A stretch of DNA of 33,208 bases from Chloroflexota bacterium. GTDB lineage: Bacteria > Chloroflexota > Limnocylindria > Limnocylindrales > CSP1-4. Shown here piece by piece: positions 11,950 through 24,157 of the stretch. The notes under the pieces were generated by a model. The model ran no database searches. It saw only the letters and a list, made by a program, of their open reading frames with translations, and was not told where the DNA came from. The position numbers were made by a program, and so were the translations under genes. Position 1 is the first letter of the stretch. The number at the start of each line of letters is the position of its first letter. The DNA lies in NCBI GenBank assembly GCA_003158675.1, contig PMKN01000016.1:1-33208 (forward strand), given 5' to 3'.

Positions 11950-12165
11950 GCCAATCGAATAGAGCCGCTCGGATCAGGGAAGCCGGTGCAAGACCGGCGC
12001 TGTCGCGCAACTGTGAGCGAGGAGCGGCTGGCCAGAGCCAAGGTCTGCCCGGAGACGGGCGGCCGAGGCGAGCCACGGGGCAACGCCCCGGAAGGCGGCC
12101 AGCAGCGTAGCCATCGGCGATGCCGGTGGCTCACGATCCGCAAGCCAGGAGACCTGACCGGACGG
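11950..12165 (+). ncRNA. Cobalamin (adenosylcobalamin) riboswitch
   Basis: The conserved core is plain: CAGGGAAGCCGGTGCAAGAC, then GCGCAACTGTGAGCG in the 5' half, and the B12 box GCAAGCCAGGAGACCTGACC at 12140-12159. Order and spacing fit the class (about 215 bases with peripheral stems between). It precedes five coupled genes ending in an ECF transporter, so ligand binding should reduce their expression when cobalamin is plentiful. Exact ends of the aptamer are approximate. Confidence 0.93.
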
Positions 12166-12200
12166 CGCAAGTCACCCACCTGCGCGGATCGGATGGGAGG

Positions 12201-12246
12201 CCTCCGGCGGCGAGGTCCCTCCGGCAGGTGGCGCTGCCGCCGGAGG
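12201..12246 (+). promoter_or_regulatory. Shine-Dalgarno-sequestering hairpin, expression platform of the riboswitch
   Basis: CCTCCGGCGGC at 12201-12211 is the exact reverse complement of GCCGCCGGAGG at 12236-12246, an 11-bp stem with a 24-base loop. The right arm contains the GGAGG ribosome site of the ATG at 12251. An alternative 6-bp hairpin (CGGCAG 12222-12227 with CTGCCG 12234-12239) excludes the stem and would free the ribosome site. This points to translational control. Pairing is seen directly; which form the ligand favours is inference. Confidence 0.7.
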
Positions 12247-12250
12247 AACA

Positions 12251-13687
12251 ATGCGCAGACACGTTGTCGCCAGCGCGCTACTGGCGAGTCTCCTCACCGC
12301 CCCGCTGACCCTGGCGGCGCTCGAGCCGGCGGCGCCTCTCCCCATCTTGGCAGCCGAGCCCACGGATTCGGAGCGGGCGACGGCCGCACTCCAGTACCTC
12401 TGGGCCGCGCAACGGCCGGACGGATCGCTCGACGGATCCATCGGCGAGACGGCCGACTTCGTGATTGGGGCGGCCGCCGCGGGCTACGATCCGGCCACTC
12501 TGCAGAGCTGCGCGGGCACGGCCACCGCTTTGGACTACCTCGCGACGGCGTCCGACGGGGCGAGTGGCGACCCGGCGAAGACCGGCAAGGCGGTTCTCGC
12601 GGTGGTCGCGGCCGGCGGGAATCCGGCCAACTTCGTCGGGCGCGATCTCATGGCCAGGCTGGCGGCGCTCTACCACTCGGACACCGGCGCTTACGGTAAC
12701 GGCTCCACATTCGGCCAATCGTTCGCGGTTCTGGCGGTCGTGGCCACTGGCGGTCCCGTGCCAGCGGCGGCGGCCGCGGCACTGAAGGCGCAGCAGGATC
12801 CAGACGGCAGCTGGAGCTTCGGGACGGCGCCCGTGGCTGCGGGACAGGGTGACACGAACTCGACGGCGATCGCGCTCATGGCTCTCGACGCGGCGGGCGA
12901 CCACTCGGCGGACACGGCGGGACTGGCCTATCTGCACTCGCAGCAACTTGCCGACGGTGGTTTCCCTTACCAGAACGACTCGACTTTCGGTCCGCCTGCG
13001 AGTGACCCGGACTCCGACGCCATCGTTCTCCAGGCTCTGGTCGCTGCCGGCCAGGACCCCGAAGGTTCGAGCTGGCTGCAGGGAGCTGACTCGGTACTGA
13101 CACAGCTGCGATCGAGCCAGGTTGCTGGCGGCGGCTTCGCGTACCCAGGTTCGGGGCCCAACGCATTCACGACGAGCGAGGTCCCTGCGGCGCTGGTCCG
13201 AATTTCCTACGCCGTGGCAGTCCAGCCCACGACCGGCCGAAGCCTGCCGCCGATCGAATGCCCGGCGGCCAGCCCGAGTCCGGCGGACAGCCCGAGTCCG
13301 GCGGACAGCCCGAGTCCGACATCGATGCTCGCGCCGACCCCGAAGCCCACCGTTCGGCCGACTGCTCGACCCACGGTCCGACCGACGGTCCGACCCACGG
13401 TCCGGCCGACCGAGGCTCCGATCGCCTCTCCGACGGCCAGCCCGACCGATTCGATGCCGCCGACCGAGCCGACCGCATCTCTCCAGGCGACCGACCAACC
13501 GACCCCGACTGGGACGCCTGCGACGTCGATGGAAGTCGCCGGCGTTACGTCCATTCCAGGCGAGCTGAACTCGGGCCCGGCCAATTCCTCGCCGGGGCCG
13601 CTCCTGTACGGCGGGGCGGCAGCGCTAGGGCTGGTCGTGGTGTTGGGCGGCGGCTGGCTCTATCTCCGCCGGCCGTGGGAACGGTGA
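12251..13687 (+). CDS. Membrane-anchored alpha/alpha-barrel protein (prenyltransferase/transcobalamin-barrel-like), probable surface cobalamin binder
   Basis: 478 residues. A signal peptide (about 33 residues ending near LAAEP) leads to an exported helical-barrel domain of about 290 residues with repeats of the prenyltransferase/squalene-cyclase type: AAQRPDGSLDGSI, AQQDPDGSWSFG, SQQLADGGFPYQ, SSQVAGGGFAYPG. A Pro/Thr/Ser stalk (about 335-430, with PTVRPT iterations) and a C-terminal membrane segment (GAAALGLVVVLGGGWLYL, then RRPWER) follow, so the domain is held outside on a stalk. The same fold forms the N-terminal domain of transcobalamin and intrinsic factor. With the B12 riboswitch upstream and the DUF4430-like gene next, cobalamin binding is the best guess. 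The ATG follows GGAGG by 4 bases. Stop and next start overlap (TGATG). A role in terpenoid chemistry is unlikely for an exported, anchored protein. Confidence 0.82.
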   Translation: MRRHVVASALLASLLTAPLTLAALEPAAPLPILAAEPTDSERATAALQYLWAAQRPDGSLDGSIGETADFVIGAAAAGYDPATLQSCAGTATALDYLATASDGASGDPAKTGKAVLAVVAAGGNPANFVGRDLMARLAALYHSDTGAYGNGSTFGQSFAVLAVVATGGPVPAAAAAALKAQQDPDGSWSFGTAPVAAGQGDTNSTAIALMALDAAGDHSADTAGLAYLHSQQLADGGFPYQNDSTFGPPASDPDSDAIVLQALVAAGQDPEGSSWLQGADSVLTQLRSSQVAGGGFAYPGSGPNAFTTSEVPAALVRISYAVAVQPTTGRSLPPIECPAASPSPADSPSPADSPSPTSMLAPTPKPTVRPTARPTVRPTVRPTVRPTEAPIASPTASPTDSMPPTEPTASLQATDQPTPTGTPATSMEVAGVTSIPGELNSGPANSSPGPLLYGGAAALGLVVVLGGGWLYLRRPWER

Positions 13688-14490
13688 TGCGACGCCGCGC
13701 GCTGTTCCTGCCCGCCGCCCTCCTGGCGGCGCTCGCTTCGGTCGCGCCGGTGGCGCCGACCGTGCCCGCCTGCGCCGCCGCGGGTTCAAACCATGCGGCC
13801 CTGGTCGTCGAGCACGGCGACGGCTCGGTGGTGACCCGTTGCGTCGCCTTCGCCGCCGACGCCATCTCGGGCGAAGAGCTGCTCAACGTGTCCGGAGTGG
13901 CGTGGTCGAGCCAGACGTTCGGCGGCTTCGGCGATGCCGTATGCGCCCTGGACACCGAGCCGGCTCACTACGTCGATTGCCCCGGCAAGGACAGATATTG
14001 GGCCGTCTTCGTAGCTCGGGGCGGTGGGGCGTGGCAGCTCGCCAGCGTGGGCATATCGACGCTGATGCTGCACGGCGGCGACGCGGCGGGATTCCGCTAC
14101 GTGCCCGCTTCGGGGGTTCCGGATGCGCCGGTATCGCCGGTGGGGGTCTGCGCCGCCGCGCCGGCACAAACCCCACGCCAATCCGTGGCCGCCAGCGCCG
14201 CAACGGCGAACGCCGCAACGGCGAGCACCGCAACGGCGCCGCCGATTGCCCTGCGGACGCCGGTCGCCGCGAACCCTACGTCGGCCGCGGCAGCCGCCAC
14301 CGCCGCGCTCGCCTTGTCGCCGGTGACGGACTCGATCGTGGCCGCCACCGCCCCACCCGGGCCCCGGGTGCCAGCTCCATCTCCATCCGGGGACCCTGAT
14401 CCCGGCCTACTTCTGGCCGCCGGCGTCGGCGGAGGACTCGCCGGACTGGCGGTCCTTCGGTTCCTCTCCGGCCGTCGTTCGCGCCGGTGA
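13687..14490 (+). CDS. Membrane-anchored DUF4430-like protein (transcobalamin C-terminal-domain-like)
   Basis: 267 residues: signal peptide (ALFLPAALLAALASVAP), one beta-rich domain of about 120 residues, an Ala/Thr-rich stalk (repeated ATA/NAATAS), and a C-terminal membrane anchor (LLLAAGVGGGLAGLAVLRFL, then SGRRSRR). The beta domain has the DUF4430-type pattern: AISGEELLNVSGVAW, a Gly-rich turn, YWAVFVARGGGAWQLASVG, STLMLHGGDAAGFRYV. DUF4430 is the family of the C-terminal cobalamin-contacting domain of transcobalamin. Cysteines in TRCVAF, AVCALD and VDCPG could form disulfides outside the cell. Translationally coupled on both sides (TGATG upstream, GTGA downstream). The most likely job is to close over cobalamin held by the barrel protein; not proven by sequence. 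Confidence 0.78.
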   Translation: MRRRALFLPAALLAALASVAPVAPTVPACAAAGSNHAALVVEHGDGSVVTRCVAFAADAISGEELLNVSGVAWSSQTFGGFGDAVCALDTEPAHYVDCPGKDRYWAVFVARGGGAWQLASVGISTLMLHGGDAAGFRYVPASGVPDAPVSPVGVCAAAPAQTPRQSVAASAATANAATASTATAPPIALRTPVAANPTSAAAAATAALALSPVTDSIVAATAPPGPRVPAPSPSGDPDPGLLLAAGVGGGLAGLAVLRFLSGRRSRR

Positions 14491-15362
14491 GCAGGCCGTC
14501 GGTGCAAGAGTCATTGGCGCCCAGAGGTGGAACTCTCGCCCCTCGGGCATGGGTCGTCTGGTCGCTCGCCGCGGTCACCGTCGCCCTCGTCAGCGACAAC
14601 CCGGTCTATCGCGGACTGGTCGCGCTCGTGGCCCTCAACGTTCTGCTCGTGTCGCTGCCGCCGGGTCGGCGCCTCGGCACCCTGGGTGTCACCGTCCTGG
14701 TGGCAGCGGCCCTCGCCGCGCTGATCAACGTGCTCGCCAGCCATACGGGAGCCAATGCGCTGGTCCGCCTGCCCGCCGGCTTGCCGCTCGTGGGTGGGCC
14801 CCTGACGCTCGAATCGTTGGCTTTCGGCGGCGCGCTCGGACTCGGGCTCGTTGCGGCACTGTTGGCGGTGGCTCCGCTTGCGCTCGTTCTGGAGCCGCAT
14901 GACGTCGTCGACGCCATGCCCGCCTCGCTGGAGCGGACCGGCGTTGCGGTCGCCACCTCGCTCAACCTGGTCTCCGGCTTCGGGCGGACCTTCACCGAAG
15001 TCCGCGATGCCCAGCGAATGCGCGGCTGGAAGCCGGGTGGGCTGAGGTCCTGGAACGAGGTCCTCGTACCCACGGTGCTGACGGCCATCGAGGATTCGGT
15101 CCGGCTGGCGGAGGCGATGGAGGCTCGGGCGTTCGGGGCCGGGCGGCGCACCAGCTACGCGGCGCCGAGCTTCCGGCGGCTGGACGCCGTCGTGGTGGTG
15201 GCGGCGCTTTCAGCCGCGGCCTTGTTCGTGGGCCTGCGCCTCGCCGGCGCGCCGATGGACTGGTATCCGTACCCGACCCTCTCGCTGCCGCCGGTCCACC
15301 CGCTCCTGGTCGTCGGCTGTCTGGGTCTGGCGTTGCCGGCGGTCGTCGGGCGGCCGGAATGA
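14487..15362 (+). CDS. ECF transporter T component (CbiQ/EcfT-like transmembrane coupling protein)
   Basis: 291 residues with about five to six membrane segments (for example WSLAAVTVALVSDNPVYRGL, TLGVTVLVAAALAALINVLA, LGLGLVAALLAVAPLALVLE). The cytoplasmic coupling helices carry the two Arg signatures of the family: DAQRMRGW and MEARAFGAGRR, which bind the Q-loop grooves of the ATPase domains. GTG start overlaps the upstream stop by 4 bases (GTGA), and its stop overlaps the ATPase start (ATGA). It transmits ATP-driven movement to the S component encoded two genes on. Confidence 0.9.
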   Translation: MSRPSVQESLAPRGGTLAPRAWVVWSLAAVTVALVSDNPVYRGLVALVALNVLLVSLPPGRRLGTLGVTVLVAAALAALINVLASHTGANALVRLPAGLPLVGGPLTLESLAFGGALGLGLVAALLAVAPLALVLEPHDVVDAMPASLERTGVAVATSLNLVSGFGRTFTEVRDAQRMRGWKPGGLRSWNEVLVPTVLTAIEDSVRLAEAMEARAFGAGRRTSYAAPSFRRLDAVVVVAALSAAALFVGLRLAGAPMDWYPYPTLSLPPVHPLLVVGCLGLALPAVVGRPE

Positions 15363-16750
15363 GCGTCGCGGTGGCCCGCCTGGCCGGCGTCTCCTACTGG
15401 TATCCGGACCAGGACGAGCCCTCGCTGCGCGCGGTCGACTTGGAGATCGAGCCCGGACTGACGCTGGTGGCCGGCGATTCGGGCGGTGGCAAGTCCACTC
15501 TGCTGCGGCTCTTCAGCGGCCTCGTGCCGCAGTTCCACGGCGGGCGCATCTCTGGCCGGGCGGAGGTTGCGGGCCTGGACCCGTTGCGGACGCCAATCGC
15601 GCGGCTCGCCCAGCGTGTGGGCCTCGTGTTCCAGGACGTCGAAACGCAGTCGGTCTACGGCACGGTCGAGCGCGAGATCGCATTCGGCCTGGAGAACCTG
15701 GGTGTGGCCCGCGCGGAGATGCACGACCGCGTGGACGAGGCGATGGCTTCGCTCGGGATCGAAGGCCTGCGCAGCCGGCGCCTCTCGACCCTCTCCGGCG
15801 GGGAGCGCCAGCGGGTGCAGCTGGCCTCGGTCCTCGTCCTCCGGCCGGCGCTCGTCGCCCTGGACGAGCCCACTTCCCAGCTCGATCCGTGGGGCGCCGC
15901 CGCGGTTCTGGCGGCCTGCCGCGGCCTCGCGGACGAAGGACGCGCGGTTGTCGTCGCCGAGCATCGCCTCGAGATGGTGGCGCCGGCCGCCGACCGAACG
16001 CTGACTGTGGATCACGGCCAGGTCATGGCCGGGGTCGCGGGCGGGGTTGCGGGCGCGTCGAATCGTCCGCACGTGAGGATGCCGCGGACGCGCACCTCGT
16101 CCGACGACACCGCGTGGGAGCTAAGCGGCGTAGCCGCGGGCCATGTGCGCGGCCGCACTCAGGAGCCGGTGCTCAGCGACATCTTCCTGGCAGGCGGCCG
16201 CGGCGAGGTCGTGGCGCTGCTCGGCCCCAACGGCTCCGGCAAGACGACGCTGCTGCGGACGCTGGCGGGGTTGCTCCCTCCGCTCGCGGGCGCGGTGCGG
16301 CGGCCCGCCGGCCGCACCGCATATCTGCCGCAGAACCCCGGCGCGCTGCTCCACCTGCCCACGGTCCGAGACGAAGTTGCCCTGACTCTCCGCCGCACCG
16401 GCAGCCGCGAGGCGCCCGCCAAGATGCTCGACGCCTTCGGCCTTACCCGACTCTCAGATCGCTACCCGCGCGACCTGAGTTCGGGGGAGCGGCAACGAGC
16501 CGCGCTGGCGGCAGCTCTTGCCGGCTCGCCCACCCTGGTCCTGCTGGACGAACCGACCCGCGGCATGGATGCGGCCGCGCGTCGGTCGCTGGCCGCGGCG
16601 GTCCAGACCCTCACGGCGGGCGGCGCGGCTGTCGTCCTGGCCACACACGACACGGACCTGGCGGCCACGCTCGCCGATCGAACGGTCGAACTGCGCGCCG
16701 GTCGTGCCGCGGAGCGGGCCGAAACCCCAGCCGCCGGATCTCGTCGATGA
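15359..16750 (+). CDS. ECF transporter fused ATPase (two ABC domains, EcfA-EcfA')
   Basis: 463 residues containing two complete ABC ATPase domains. Domain 1: Walker A GDSGGGKST (39-47), Q-loop VFQDVETQSV, signature LSGGERQRV, Walker B ALVALDEP, switch VVAEHRLE. Domain 2: Walker A GPNGSGKTT (about 289), Q-loop YLPQNPGAL, signature LSSGERQRA, Walker B LVLLDEPTRG, switch LATHDTD. Both look catalytically intact. Most ECF systems use separate A and A' subunits; fused forms are known. Start and stop both overlap the neighbours as ATGA. Confidence 0.94.
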   Translation: MSVAVARLAGVSYWYPDQDEPSLRAVDLEIEPGLTLVAGDSGGGKSTLLRLFSGLVPQFHGGRISGRAEVAGLDPLRTPIARLAQRVGLVFQDVETQSVYGTVEREIAFGLENLGVARAEMHDRVDEAMASLGIEGLRSRRLSTLSGGERQRVQLASVLVLRPALVALDEPTSQLDPWGAAAVLAACRGLADEGRAVVVAEHRLEMVAPAADRTLTVDHGQVMAGVAGGVAGASNRPHVRMPRTRTSSDDTAWELSGVAAGHVRGRTQEPVLSDIFLAGGRGEVVALLGPNGSGKTTLLRTLAGLLPPLAGAVRRPAGRTAYLPQNPGALLHLPTVRDEVALTLRRTGSREAPAKMLDAFGLTRLSDRYPRDLSSGERQRAALAAALAGSPTLVLLDEPTRGMDAAARRSLAAAVQTLTAGGAAVVLATHDTDLAATLADRTVELRAGRAAERAETPAAGSRR

Positions 16751-17538
16751 GCGTCGCGGCCATCTCGTTGGCCGGAGTAGTGCTCTTCGTGTGGCCCTTC
16801 CTGGGCCTCGGCCTGCCGCCGGAGGTGCCCGCCCTGGCGGTCACGCTCGGCGCCGTGGCGTCGCTGGCGCTGTTGGAGACCGGTACGAGGCGCCTCGATT
16901 CGGGCCGGCTCGCTCTGCTCGCGGCGCTGGCCGCAATCGATGCCGCGCTCCGATTGGCCCTGGTGAACGGCGTGGCCGGCTTCAGCCCGATCTTCTTCCT
17001 GGTCATGTGCGCCGGTTACGAGTTCGGGGCCTCGTACGGGTTCCTCGTCGGCGCCTTCTCGTTGCTGGTCTCGGGCCTCGTCACGGGCGGGATCGGGCCC
17101 TGGCTTCCTTACGAGACGTTCGCGGTTGGCTGGGTCGGCGCCTCGGCCGGCCTCACCGGTTCGGTCGTGCGCCGCTTCGGGCGCGGTCGCCCCCTCGATC
17201 ACGGCCGCCGAATCGGGGCGCCGGGCATGCCGCCAGGCAGGCTGGACCTGGCCGTCCTCGTCGTCGTGGCGATCGTGACGGGCTTCGCGTACGGCGCTCT
17301 CATGGACATCTGGGGTTGGGTGGCCTTCGCTCGAGGCGTCGAGAACATCGGCTGGATCCCCGGCCTTTCGGCCGCCGACTCGCTGGCCCAATTCGGCCGC
17401 TACTACGTCGTGACCTCGTTTGGATGGGATGCCTTTCGCGCAGTGGGCGACGCGCTGGCCGTGGTCGCCCTGGGTACGCCGGTGCTCATGGCCCTGAGCC
17501 GGCTTCGGGCCCGTCTCGGCTACGAGATCCTGGACTGA
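16747..17538 (+). CDS. ECF transporter S component, probable cobalamin-specific
   Basis: 263 residues, mostly membrane segments (LAGVVLFVWPFLGLGLP, IFFLVMCAGYEFGASYGFLV, GAFSLLVSGLVTGGIGPWLP, then YETFAVGWVGASAGLTG), a basic loop (GRGRPLDHGRRIGAPG) and further membrane helices to the end. The G-x-GPWLPYETFAVGWVGA segment is characteristic of one S-component group that I associate with B12-regulated ECF systems. Substrate specificity is inferred from the riboswitch and from the two exported proteins. It is longer than typical S components (about 180-200). Its 3' end overlaps the convergent glycosyltransferase gene by 19 bases. Confidence 0.85.
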   Translation: MSVAAISLAGVVLFVWPFLGLGLPPEVPALAVTLGAVASLALLETGTRRLDSGRLALLAALAAIDAALRLALVNGVAGFSPIFFLVMCAGYEFGASYGFLVGAFSLLVSGLVTGGIGPWLPYETFAVGWVGASAGLTGSVVRRFGRGRPLDHGRRIGAPGMPPGRLDLAVLVVVAIVTGFAYGALMDIWGWVAFARGVENIGWIPGLSAADSLAQFGRYYVVTSFGWDAFRAVGDALAVVALGTPVLMALSRLRARLGYEILD

Positions 17539-21195: not shown

Positions 21196-22339
21196 TCGGG
21201 CCTCGGGGGAGCCGCCGGAGAGCGACCTGCGCGAATGGCTGCGGGCCCGGGATGCCGGTCCGGCCCCGGACCGGCTCCGGATGCGCGTGGCGCACGTCAC
21301 CCGGGATGCGCCGCCGCGACGGTCTACGTGGGCGCTCCTCCGACCCGTCTCCGCGCTCGCTGTGACGGCCGCCGGCACGGTCGCCGTGACGGTCTTGATC
21401 CTCATTGCCGCCACGACGCGCGGCCCGGCCGGCCCGCTCGCCGGTGGCCTGGCCCAGAGCGCCGGCCCGACCCCGACCTCTTCGACCGACACGCTCGGCC
21501 TCATGCCCATCGGCCCTTGGCCCCGCACCGGTCCCGTCCTGGCGCTGCCGATCGACGGGCTGCCGTTCGCGTTGCTGGTCGCCCTGCCGTTCGTTGCTGC
21601 GCTCCTGCTGATCATCTATCTCGCCTGGCGCTCCTTCGCCGACGCGCATCTTTCGATCGTTCAGGAAGGATTCTGGGCCCGCCTCTGGCAGATACGACCT
21701 CCCGGCGTCTGGGCCAGTCGCGTGGCAGTGGTGCTGGTGGCGGCGGCCCTGGTCGTCGTCGGCTGCGACCTGGTCCAGTTCGGCCAGGCCAATCCCCTGA
21801 CCTACGGCAACCTCGAGAGCTCGGATGCGGTTCGCACGCTCGGCTCCAGGATGGGCGTGGGTGGCGGCGAGACATACATGTCATTCGTCCCGGGTGGCCA
21901 GCTGAGCATCATGCTGGACCTGTCGAACCAGGGCGAGCTCCCGTTGACGGTAACCTCGTTCGACGCGGCCCTATTCGGCGAGCAACCTGCCGCGACGTTC
22001 ATCTCGTCTGTCGAACTGCGCCTACCGCAGGGGGCGACGATGGGCGGCGCCGGCCCCGACGACTACTACTCCGAAGCCTTCCACCCCTTCGAGATACCGC
22101 CCCAGGGATCCTCTTCGATGCTCATGGTCCTGCATCTCAAAGACTGCCCCGCGGTGGCGCCGGGCCCGACTCCCGGCCCTGATCCCTTCTCTGTCCACGG
22201 CTACCTGCCCACTACTGGTTACGTCACCATCGGGACGCTGCCGTTCCGCTACAGCGTGCTGGGCACCGAACGACAGACGGATCTTCTCCTGAACGACTCA
22301 CTTGGGTTGGTGTTCGGCTCGGACGTGGTGACCTGCTGA
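21185..22339 (+). CDS. Three-pass membrane protein with extracellular beta-type domain, putative anti-sigma factor
   Basis: 384 residues. A cytoplasmic N-terminus of about 50 residues (DLREWLRARDAGPAPDRLRM) resembles the short sigma-binding tails of atypical anti-sigma factors. Membrane segments lie near 54-77, 125-147 and 177-195; the rest is extracytoplasmic, with an immunoglobulin-like strand pattern (GGQLSIMLDLSNQGELPLTV, HPFEIPPQGSSSMLMVLHLK, ending SDVVTC). The exposed domain is clearly paralogous to that of the next gene. Start overlaps the sigma stop by 11 bases; stop and next start overlap as TGATG. I know no named family for it; the anti-sigma role is inferred from position. Confidence 0.82.
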   Translation: MRRDRASGEPPESDLREWLRARDAGPAPDRLRMRVAHVTRDAPPRRSTWALLRPVSALAVTAAGTVAVTVLILIAATTRGPAGPLAGGLAQSAGPTPTSSTDTLGLMPIGPWPRTGPVLALPIDGLPFALLVALPFVAALLLIIYLAWRSFADAHLSIVQEGFWARLWQIRPPGVWASRVAVVLVAAALVVVGCDLVQFGQANPLTYGNLESSDAVRTLGSRMGVGGGETYMSFVPGGQLSIMLDLSNQGELPLTVTSFDAALFGEQPAATFISSVELRLPQGATMGGAGPDDYYSEAFHPFEIPPQGSSSMLMVLHLKDCPAVAPGPTPGPDPFSVHGYLPTTGYVTIGTLPFRYSVLGTERQTDLLLNDSLGLVFGSDVVTC

Positions 22340-23160
22340 TGCCCGAATTCGTCGTCGATGCGATTCTGGCCGGGGTGGCGATCGTGGTGGCTATCGCCAT
22401 CGGGCTGGTCATACTCGACGCCGTGGCGCTGACCCGAGAGGATCTTCGGGCGCAGGCCGTGGCGCCGCGCCCCATGCTGAGCCGGGCGGCCAGGCTGCGC
22501 CGGCTGGCTGTCGTTGCCGTCGTCGTGGCGATCGTGGCGGCCGCGGGGGCGGGCTTTCAGGTAATCGAAGGCGATTCGCTCCTGGCCTCCGGACCGGCCG
22601 ACGGTTCGGGTTCTCTGTATCTCGGCACCGCGCCGACGACCTACCGCGGCCCGGACGACCTCGTCTTCGCGGCGGTGCCGGGCGGCGACATCCAGGTGAA
22701 GTTCAGCCTCGTGAATACGGGCGCCTTCCCGCTGACGGTCACCACGATGAACGAACCTCTCAATGGCAGCTCGGTGTGGGAGGCGGACGGCTATTTCGCT
22801 TCGGGATCGGTTGCGCCCGCAGGTCAGCCGAGCGACGGCGCGACCCATCGCTTCGAGATCCCGCCCCACGCAACCGTGCCGGTCGTCGCGCACCTCCACC
22901 TCAGGAAGTGCCGCCCCTCGACCTCGGAGACCGGGGCGACTCCCTCGACTCCCACTCCCGCAGGAACGCCTTCGGCGTGGGCGGCTGTGACGGCCGAAGC
23001 AGGTGGGTTCATGTCCTTCGGCAGCCTCTCGATCGCCTATGAGATGCTCGGGATGACGCACACTTCCACTGTTGCGCTGCCCGCCAATCTGGTCATGATC
23101 GACGCGAATTCGGTTCTCTGCCCCAGCGCCGCAGGCTCCCCGCCGACGAACTACCCGTAG
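22339..23160 (+). CDS. Two-pass membrane protein with extracellular domain, paralogue of the preceding gene
   Basis: 273 residues: an N-terminal membrane segment (VDAILAGVAIVVAIAIGLVI), a short cytoplasmic loop with many Arg, a second membrane segment (LAVVAVVVAIVAAAGAGF), then an extracytoplasmic domain. That domain aligns with the upstream protein: GGDIQVKFSLVNTGAFPLTV against GGQLSIMLDLSNQGELPLTV, HRFEIPPHATVPVVAHLHLR against HPFEIPPQGSSSMLMVLHLK, and a closing Cys. It lacks the cytoplasmic sigma-tail-like N-terminus, so it may be a partner or sensor rather than the anti-sigma factor. No known family recognised. Confidence 0.8.
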   Translation: MPEFVVDAILAGVAIVVAIAIGLVILDAVALTREDLRAQAVAPRPMLSRAARLRRLAVVAVVVAIVAAAGAGFQVIEGDSLLASGPADGSGSLYLGTAPTTYRGPDDLVFAAVPGGDIQVKFSLVNTGAFPLTVTTMNEPLNGSSVWEADGYFASGSVAPAGQPSDGATHRFEIPPHATVPVVAHLHLRKCRPSTSETGATPSTPTPAGTPSAWAAVTAEAGGFMSFGSLSIAYEMLGMTHTSTVALPANLVMIDANSVLCPSAAGSPPTNYP

Positions 23161-23233
23161 CCAATTGAACCGGCCCCTCGGTTTCGGCGTCTGGGGGACG
23201 TTCACGATCCGCCGCAAACAGGGGTGCTCGACA

Positions 23234-24157
23234 ATGTCTCAGAACTACCGCCCGGTCAGCTCGCTGGCACGCTGGGTTGGGACCACAGGCGCGGTTCTCA
23301 TGCTGGCTGCCGGGTGTGTCACGGCCGGTGGCAACGCCAGCCCCACCGGTGCCTCCGGCGCGCCGACGCCCCCGGCGCCGACGCCGAGTGGATCGCCCTC
23401 GCCGAGCGCCCCCTCATCGGCGAGCGGCTTCTACCTGCGGGCCTGGCAGACTCAGGCCCTGGCGCCGCAGTACACCTTCAGCTTGCTGCCGATCGCCACC
23501 ATCTCGGATGGCCAGTTCATCGACGGCGTCGTCGCTGTTCCGGCCATCTACCCCGGGCCGCTGTGGATCGGGCTGTCGGCTCAGCCGATCTCCGCGGCCG
23601 GCATCGACGCCATCGTGGCCGAGGCGCGCAAGGATGGACTTCTCGGCGCGAAGTCCGACTTCAGCGGCGCCCCGATGCCAGGCTCGATTACGGGCCATCT
23701 GCAGCTGGTCGTCGATGGTACGACCTACGACCTGACAGGCTCGCCGGACGCGGCAACAGGGACCGGTGCCTCGCCGGCTCCGGGAACGGCGGGCGCATTC
23801 GCCGCCTTCTGGCAGAGACTCACCGGGCTGGGCATGTGGCTGGCCGATGATCTCGGGCCGTCGGCTCCGTACGAGCCCGACCGCCTGGCCGTTCTGGCCA
23901 TCCCACCGGCCGATGCCACCAGCGGCATCACGCCCAATGAAGTGCCGTGGCCGCTGGCGACGCCGTTCTCGAAGTTCGGGACCGCCATGGGCAACGAGAC
24001 CTCCCGGTGCGCGGTCGTTGCGGGCGCCGATCTCGCTCTGCTCGAACCGCTCGTCAAGCAGTCCAACCAGCTGACCCGCTTCGTCGACAGCGCGAAAGTC
24101 AAGGACACGCTGACGGTCCGGGCTATGGTTCCGGGCGAGCCCGATCCGTGCGCGTAG
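23234..24157 (+). CDS. Lipoprotein of unknown function
   Basis: 307 residues with a lipoprotein signal (GAVLMLAAGC, lipid-bearing Cys at about residue 28). A Thr/Pro/Ser-rich spacer follows (GASGAPTPPAPTPSGSPSPS), then a globular domain with FYLRAWQTQALAPQYTFSLL and SITGHLQLVVDGTTYDLTG. The ATG at 23234 is chosen because it puts the signal peptide at the N-terminus; an in-frame ATG at 23165 would add 23 residues before it. It lies 73 bases after the paralogous membrane proteins on the same strand and may be the outer partner of that sigma-linked system. No family recognised. Confidence 0.75.
   Translation: MSQNYRPVSSLARWVGTTGAVLMLAAGCVTAGGNASPTGASGAPTPPAPTPSGSPSPSAPSSASGFYLRAWQTQALAPQYTFSLLPIATISDGQFIDGVVAVPAIYPGPLWIGLSAQPISAAGIDAIVAEARKDGLLGAKSDFSGAPMPGSITGHLQLVVDGTTYDLTGSPDAATGTGASPAPGTAGAFAAFWQRLTGLGMWLADDLGPSAPYEPDRLAVLAIPPADATSGITPNEVPWPLATPFSKFGTAMGNETSRCAVVAGADLALLEPLVKQSNQLTRFVDSAKVKDTLTVRAMVPGEPDPCA

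Follow-up and report, generated by a model that had tools for sequence, protein, structure and literature searches.

A cobalamin-riboswitch operon of a Chloroflexota bacterium encoding a putative two-part, transcobalamin-like surface receptor together with an ECF importer

A contig of an uncultured Chloroflexota bacterium assigned to the lineage CSP1-4 of the Limnocylindrales (PMKN01000016.1, assembly GCA_003158675.1; positions 1 to 33,208, the whole stretch of 33,208 nucleotides analysed here being called the window) carries a cobalamin (vitamin B12) riboswitch followed by five genes. These encode a predicted alpha/alpha barrel protein, a second protein with a predicted beta domain (referred to as barrel and beta), and the T, fused A-A and S components of an energy-coupling factor (ECF) transporter (Table 1). 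The riboswitch is the sole Rfam match at gathering score within the window, and no second match to RF00174 was reported from the source genome, a result that covers 150 of its 207 first-look candidates. It ends 75 bases before the first gene, and the five genes overlap successively by 1, 4, 4 and 4 bases, confirming the compact riboswitch operon that had been described in a first-pass annotation made from the sequence. Homologous loci and genomes are numbered below with the prefixes L and G.

Table 1. Features of the operon in the window (E, expectation value; SD, Shine-Dalgarno site; P/T, proline/threonine; ABC, ATP-binding cassette).
Feature	Position	Strand	Description and evidence
Cobalamin riboswitch aptamer, RF00174	11954-12175	+	cmscan 53.1 bits (gathering score 31.5), E 1.1e-10
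Hairpin over the SD of the first gene	12201-12246	+	12-bp stem, 12201-12212 with 12235-12246; SD 12242-12246
Barrel gene	12251-13687	+	signal segment, alpha/alpha barrel 12356-13264, P/T-rich stalk, C-terminal membrane helix ~13592-13666
Beta gene	13687-14490	+	signal segment, transcobalamin-beta-like domain 13768-14154, stalk, C-terminal membrane helix ~14401-14466
ECF T component, CbiQ family	14487-15362	+	GTG start; PF02361 25.9 bits, cut-off 25
ECF ATPase, two fused ABC domains	15359-16750	+	PF00005 in two stretches, 171 bits; TIGR01166 (cbiO) 256.8 against a cut-off of 211.8
ECF S component, CbrT-like	16747-17538	+	S-family profile (26 sequences) against solved structures

The leader between aptamer and barrel gene can fold into a hairpin that covers the Shine-Dalgarno site and might serve as a translational expression platform. 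A stem of 11-12 bp over this site was found in all 16 same-genus loci folded, the window included, which amounts to conservation and not covariation since the sequences are near-identical. It is the minimum-energy fold in six of the 16 loci; the other ten adopt a shorter-range hairpin over the same Shine-Dalgarno site, so that both alternative hairpins close it.

Hydropathy analysis places hydrophobic segments at the N- and C-termini of the barrel protein (residues 4-24 and 448-472) and of the beta protein (residues 4-31 and 239-260), with an extra segment in the former (157-178) located within the barrel domain. The stalk of the barrel protein matches the PT repeat of Pfam (PF04886), and that of the beta protein is rich in alanine, threonine and proline as judged by eye. 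The earlier description of both as exported, stalked and membrane-anchored is thus borne out.

An indication of what the beta protein could be comes from its predicted structure. An AlphaFold2 model built from 49 sequences (predicted local distance difference test, pLDDT, 90.6; predicted template modelling score, pTM, 0.86) shows a helix at residues 35-42 followed along the chain by strands at 46-51 and 55-61, which may or may not form the beta-hairpin insert that marks the SLBB clade discussed below. Its best matches among solved structures are two chains of 3u7z (RUMGNA_00854; presumably a DUF4430 protein), and ranks 3-18 are taken by 16 consecutive chains of transcobalamin, haptocorrin and intrinsic factor, as would be expected from the transcobalamin-like beta domain that had been proposed. 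Ranks 1-18 all have a probability of 1.00, and other folds follow at 0.93 and lower; the fold E-values range from 1.5e-5 to 4.9e-3, and the isolated beta domain of transcobalamin (5no0) is matched at E 4.2e-4 with a template modelling (TM) score of 0.55 by query and 0.66 by target. The designation as DUF4430-like fared unevenly: the beta protein has no Pfam match at E ≤ 10, PF14478 ('transcobalamin-like, C-terminal' in InterPro) included, and only one of the 49 beta domains matches PF14478, at E 0.15. Besides the fold, a moderate profile-profile match speaks for it, the beta family aligning with DUF4430 at E 2.4e-5 (probability 76%) and with a second DUF4430 alignment at E 2.5e-4 (43%), compared with 0.84 and 0.45, respectively, for the barrel as a control. 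The link between the beta protein, transcobalamin and DUF4430 is based on the fold and on this profile-profile match.

The barrel protein was modelled from 47 sequences (pLDDT 95.6, pTM 0.94) and is predicted to have the alpha/alpha fold of the transcobalamin alpha half, which appears among its solved matches from rank 5 on (4zrp_B, E 9.9e-7, TM-score 0.62 by query); as this fold is common to many enzymes, it is not decisive alone. Eight of the 47 homologous barrels match the eukaryotic cobalamin-binding family PF01122 at E ≤ 1, and two of ten scanned singly (L127, 27.1; L132, 26.0) exceed its gathering score of 25. Haptocorrin is found by the barrel-family profile as well (E 0.036, positions 33-284 of 300), with cyclases matching much better.

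The remaining three genes, namely a T component, two ATPase domains and an S component, make up, by sequence, a complete ECF set, in agreement with the first-pass annotation; Pfam and NCBIfam models identify T and A-A, and the S-family profile supplies the third part, the window S component itself staying below the cut-off of the Pfam family ECF_trnsprt (20.0 against 30.7). The best solved match of this profile, built from 26 sequences, is 6fnp_A (E 4.9e-13, positions 51-245), followed by folate-type S structures (5d0y, 3.8e-4; 5d3m_C, 0.0013). 6FNP is ECF-CbrT, which imports cobalamin and cobinamide (PMC5997447; papers are cited here and below from excerpts of their text), and its chain A is taken as the CbrT S subunit from chain length and match. 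By profile comparison the S component is closer to CbrT than to the other solved S components.

Operons of this kind recur well beyond the window. Near relatives were searched in 41 genomes, from which 18 loci were taken (17 of the same genus, one of the same family). RF00174 is found at gathering score in 16 of them, and in the other two (L033 and L037) the contig ends just 40 and 281 bases before the barrel start. All five genes were recovered by tblastn in 12 of the 18; four loci are cut by contig ends and two hold the barrel only. A scan of contigs gave 24 loci, 23 from Chloroflexota or Dormibacterota and one from Romboutsia, most of them being the near-relative contigs again; no actinobacterial relative appeared in this single contig scan, and none was found in viral contigs and plasmids. 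The riboswitch is present in six of seven further loci (L056-L061, four Chloroflexota and two Dormibacterota); that of the remaining locus, L063, falls a little beyond the scanned stretch. Among 400 Chloroflexota genomes, 99 contain the beta profile, and of these 41 were chosen to spread over families: in 36 of the 41, the 6 kb upstream of beta contain RF00174 at gathering score on the same strand (chance expectation 0.055), and a sub-threshold riboswitch was seen in two more (G400, G165). Homologous operons thus keep the B12 riboswitch, as the first-pass annotation required of them. In 40 loci that were selected for beta (hence beta in all 40 by construction; some stop at contig ends, and the locus sets overlap, L102 and L105 repeating the contigs of L059 and L060), a barrel is present in 33, T in 37, A-A in 31, S in 25 and all five genes in 20. 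Gene order varies, with barrel-T-AA-beta-S in four.

Outside these phyla, a row of genes in Romboutsia (Peptostreptococcaceae) comprises the riboswitch, T, A-A, S, a barrel, a DUF4430-barrel fusion and a lipoprotein-like DUF4430 protein. Of 41 Peptostreptococcaceae genomes sampled, 14 contain PF14478; 13 of these also have RF00174, and in ten of the 14 at least one DUF4430 lies no more than 12 kb downstream of the riboswitch on the same strand. Ten stretches were read from the 14 genomes. DUF4430, barrel, T, A-A and S are all present in five of them (L166, L168, L169, L170, L175); the other five are without some components, several at a stretch edge. Fusions into a single chain occur as well: L167 encodes a barrel followed by DUF4430, i.e. 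the order of transcobalamin, L140 of the Chloroflexota combines barrel, barrel and beta in one protein (beta E 1.4e-11 against a profile from which L140 was left out), and in L139 the order is beta-barrel-barrel.

The need of the host for corrinoids was judged from gene content. CbiC, a marker of corrin synthesis, was not found in any of the 21 genomes searched, 13 of the genus and eight of the order. In the source genome three B12-binding domains were matched, two of them above cut-off, and FecCD once, below cut-off. We regard the organism as probably dependent on imported corrinoid.

It is likely that the operon represents a riboswitch-controlled capture-and-import system for B12 (corrinoid), a reading strongly supported by genomic context and predicted fold. 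A shortage of coenzyme B12 would free the ribosome-binding site of the first gene and let the operon be expressed, and the barrel and beta domains would be displayed outside the membrane on flexible stalks. There they might close on a corrinoid between them, as the halves of transcobalamin do, and deliver it to the S component, and the T/A-A motor would turn this component inward; cobalamin binding, clamp closure and hand-over are steps that we infer. When the halves of human transcobalamin are expressed separately, they remain separate in the absence of ligand, assembling once cyanocobalamin is added (PMC5599065), and the present split arrangement would be their natural counterpart. We incline, with some reserve, to go further and to see here a natural split transcobalamin, whose anchored halves close only on a corrinoid and, as a dedicated two-part receptor, deliver it to a CbrT-type S component, and which would belong to an ancient bacterial kit (Chloroflexota, Dormibacterota and Bacillota, in split, fused and beta-only forms) and be a possible source of the animal B12 carriers. 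The two-piece, transcobalamin-like receptor put forward in the first-pass annotation is supported by the folds, the riboswitch and the CbrT-like S component.

Several observations weigh against so specific a picture, beginning with the barrel. Five of the 40 loci (L110, L111, L112, L113, L114) have beta-T-AA-S and no barrel, with the riboswitch immediately upstream and a beta protein that by eye is lipobox-like at its start and has no C-terminal anchor; of six genomes in which loci lacking the barrel were seen, two gave weak, partial barrel matches and the remaining four none. Conversely, two same-genus loci (L032, L039) have barrel and riboswitch with no beta, T or S nearby, and in three of the 41 surveyed genomes (G157, G251, G167) the riboswitch is absent near beta. 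As barrel-less operons exist, a clamp of two parts is not required throughout the family, and beta alone may be sufficient in these operons. It is conceivable, if rather unlikely, that beta is the corrinoid receptor by itself throughout and that the barrel provides spacing or wall anchoring or takes another corrinoid form; the beta domain of human transcobalamin does bind cyanocobalamin alone (PMC5599065), but the barrel accompanies beta in most loci, is fused to it in some, and has a fold like the cobalamin-holding half of transcobalamin. The barrel model, moreover, has squalene-hopene cyclases at ranks 1-4 of its solved matches, its profile likewise matches them best, and the window barrel scores 28.4 against SQHop_cyclase_C (cut-off 26.1) and has no match to PF01122 at E ≤ 10. 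Nevertheless, an exported enzyme of terpene-cyclase or prenyltransferase fold seems very improbable: DxDD, the motif of class II terpene cyclases, occurs in none of the 47 barrels, for which reason we disfavour the terpene cyclase, and the protein is exported and tail-anchored, its gene lying behind the B12 riboswitch in the 16 near-relative loci mentioned. For beta, an E-value of 0.001 or better was obtained in only seven of the 500 matches listed, the TM-scores by query to transcobalamin are 0.51-0.63, and the beta profiles found no transcobalamin among the sequences of solved structures; with the Peptostreptococcaceae DUF4430 profile, 3u7z came up no better than E 0.25, and transcobalamin (E 2.2) ranked behind unrelated reductases.

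The cargo may be questioned too. CbrT transports cobinamide as well (PMC5997447), and the transcobalamin beta domain binds it (PMC5599065); that a B12 precursor or another corrinoid (cobinamide, lower-ligand variants) is taken up rather than cobalamin itself is not what we expect, yet it deserves attention and is a variant of the capture-and-import reading. Much further off lies the import of cobalt by a CbiMNQO-like system, or of another vitamin, with the surface proteins as unrelated adhesins. T and A-A are indeed CbiQ/CbiO-like, and S relatives match other models: 13 of 26 the folate-family S model of NCBIfam at E ≤ 1 (best 8.2e-4), three the riboflavin-type one (best 4.3e-6), and the Romboutsia S component is above cut-off for PF07155 (riboflavin-type S), all of this in NCBIfam and Pfam libraries of S models that may contain no CbrT model. 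Against this, FolT is a much poorer match of the S profile than ECF-CbrT, on which ground cobalt import is disfavoured, CbiM is matched by one of the 26 relatives (0.0019), CbiC is missing from the genomes searched, and both the B12 riboswitch and the transcobalamin-like folds of the surface proteins remain to be accounted for, which makes this explanation extremely improbable. Finally, the source genome is 82% complete, so that absences in it are weak evidence.

The animal carriers transcobalamin, intrinsic factor and haptocorrin share the alpha/alpha barrel and beta folds with the two window proteins. They consist of one chain, as do L140 and L167 in the same order, whereas the window has separate genes at 12251 and 13687; in addition, the window halves are membrane-anchored and encoded in an ECF operon, their sequence similarity to the carriers is very low, and they are known here from sequence and models. 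A bacterial connection was drawn by Burroughs et al. (2007), who grouped the C-terminal domain of transcobalamin with secreted domains of bacteria, described cases fused to alpha/alpha toroids and cases in which CbiO and CbiQ share the operon, in hosts usually without key B12 synthesis enzymes, predicted B12 scavenging for such domains and proposed their transfer to animals (PMC1796856). Like their SLBB proteins, which are beta-grasp domains, secreted or anchored and often paired with such a toroid, the window system has an exported transcobalamin-beta fold, a toroid partner and CbiO and CbiQ in the operon (PMC1796856). Their taxa are low-GC Gram-positives, planctomycetes and some euryarchaea, in contrast to the Chloroflexota of the window, and 'Chloroflex', 'ECF' and 'riboswitch' have no mention in the text (PMC1796856); unlike their set, the present beta family is unrecognised by PF14478. 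The idea that surface capture for an ECF importer would be a new arrangement is weakened accordingly, and since B12 scavenging beside CbiO/CbiQ had been predicted, we regard the operon as a variant of that kind. What the present analysis adds is the Chloroflexota/Dormibacterota branch missed by Pfam, the two separate anchored halves, an S component tied to CbrT, the counted link to the riboswitch and the beta-only operons with a lipoprotein-like beta.

Compared with other importers, ECF-CbrT of Lactobacillus delbrueckii (6FNP) has a homologous S subunit, as given above, and uses a shared group II module, with no surface capture protein mentioned in the excerpts (PMC5997447), whereas the window encodes a dedicated module and two surface proteins. 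The lipoproteins BtuG and BtuH of Bacteroides similarly capture B12 at the surface for an importer (PMC6143338, PMC8941943), but BtuG is a beta-propeller working with the outer-membrane protein BtuB, so that fold and route differ (PMC6143338). The families SCO2321 and SCO2322 (NF053823, NF040672), whose names state no function, are matched at E ≤ 1 by 46 of 47 barrels and 48 of 49 beta domains, and their curated cut-offs are not reached by the window proteins (67.3 against 300 and 28.7 against 85). SCO2321-SCO2325 may form a Streptomyces operon, as the family names suggest. The open-access literature (no preprints, few subscription journals) yielded no paper on this operon in Chloroflexota or on SCO2321-2325 and no experimental test of such operons.

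In ECF importers the S component itself has been described as the binding protein (PMC5997447), and a conserved surface receptor, if true, would alter this picture for B12. Each half of the human B12 carriers would then have a bacterial counterpart, and the suggestion made in 2007 that transcobalamin came from bacteria could be tested directly. The same reading would give a function to SCO2321, SCO2322 and many DUF4430 proteins, and provide a marker of B12 dependence in poorly cultured phyla.

Further variants of the barrel were noticed during the survey. Tandem double barrels in a single reading frame are encoded in L061 (8001-9908) and in L103, L105, L121, L124, L136, L139, L140 and L141. 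Giant surface proteins of 2744 and 2784 amino acids, with six and five barrel matches, are encoded in L063 (=L175; 6759-14993) and L167 (5027-13381), both in B12-riboswitch/ECF neighbourhoods, the one in L167 having barrels followed by DUF4430; they could possibly be multivalent B12 catchers. Directly after the Romboutsia B12 operon, L063 encodes a membrane protein that by eye is RND/MMPL-like (15142-16551). The solitary barrel genes behind their own riboswitch lie at 5662-6948 in L039 (G011) and at 5493-7193 in L032 (G007), G011 also having the full operon L025.

Upstream of the window operon, a luciferase-like monooxygenase (PF00296; 10857-11831, minus strand) reads away from the riboswitch out of the same intergenic stretch. 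Downstream, three consecutive plus-strand frames (21235-22179, 22339-23157 and 23165-24154) have no Pfam match at 1e-8 and are possibly an unnamed operon or not genes. Elsewhere among the relatives, contig C60 of G383 has four cobalamin riboswitch matches in 9 kb on one strand (at 65430, 70507, 72105 and 73956), one of them sub-gathering.

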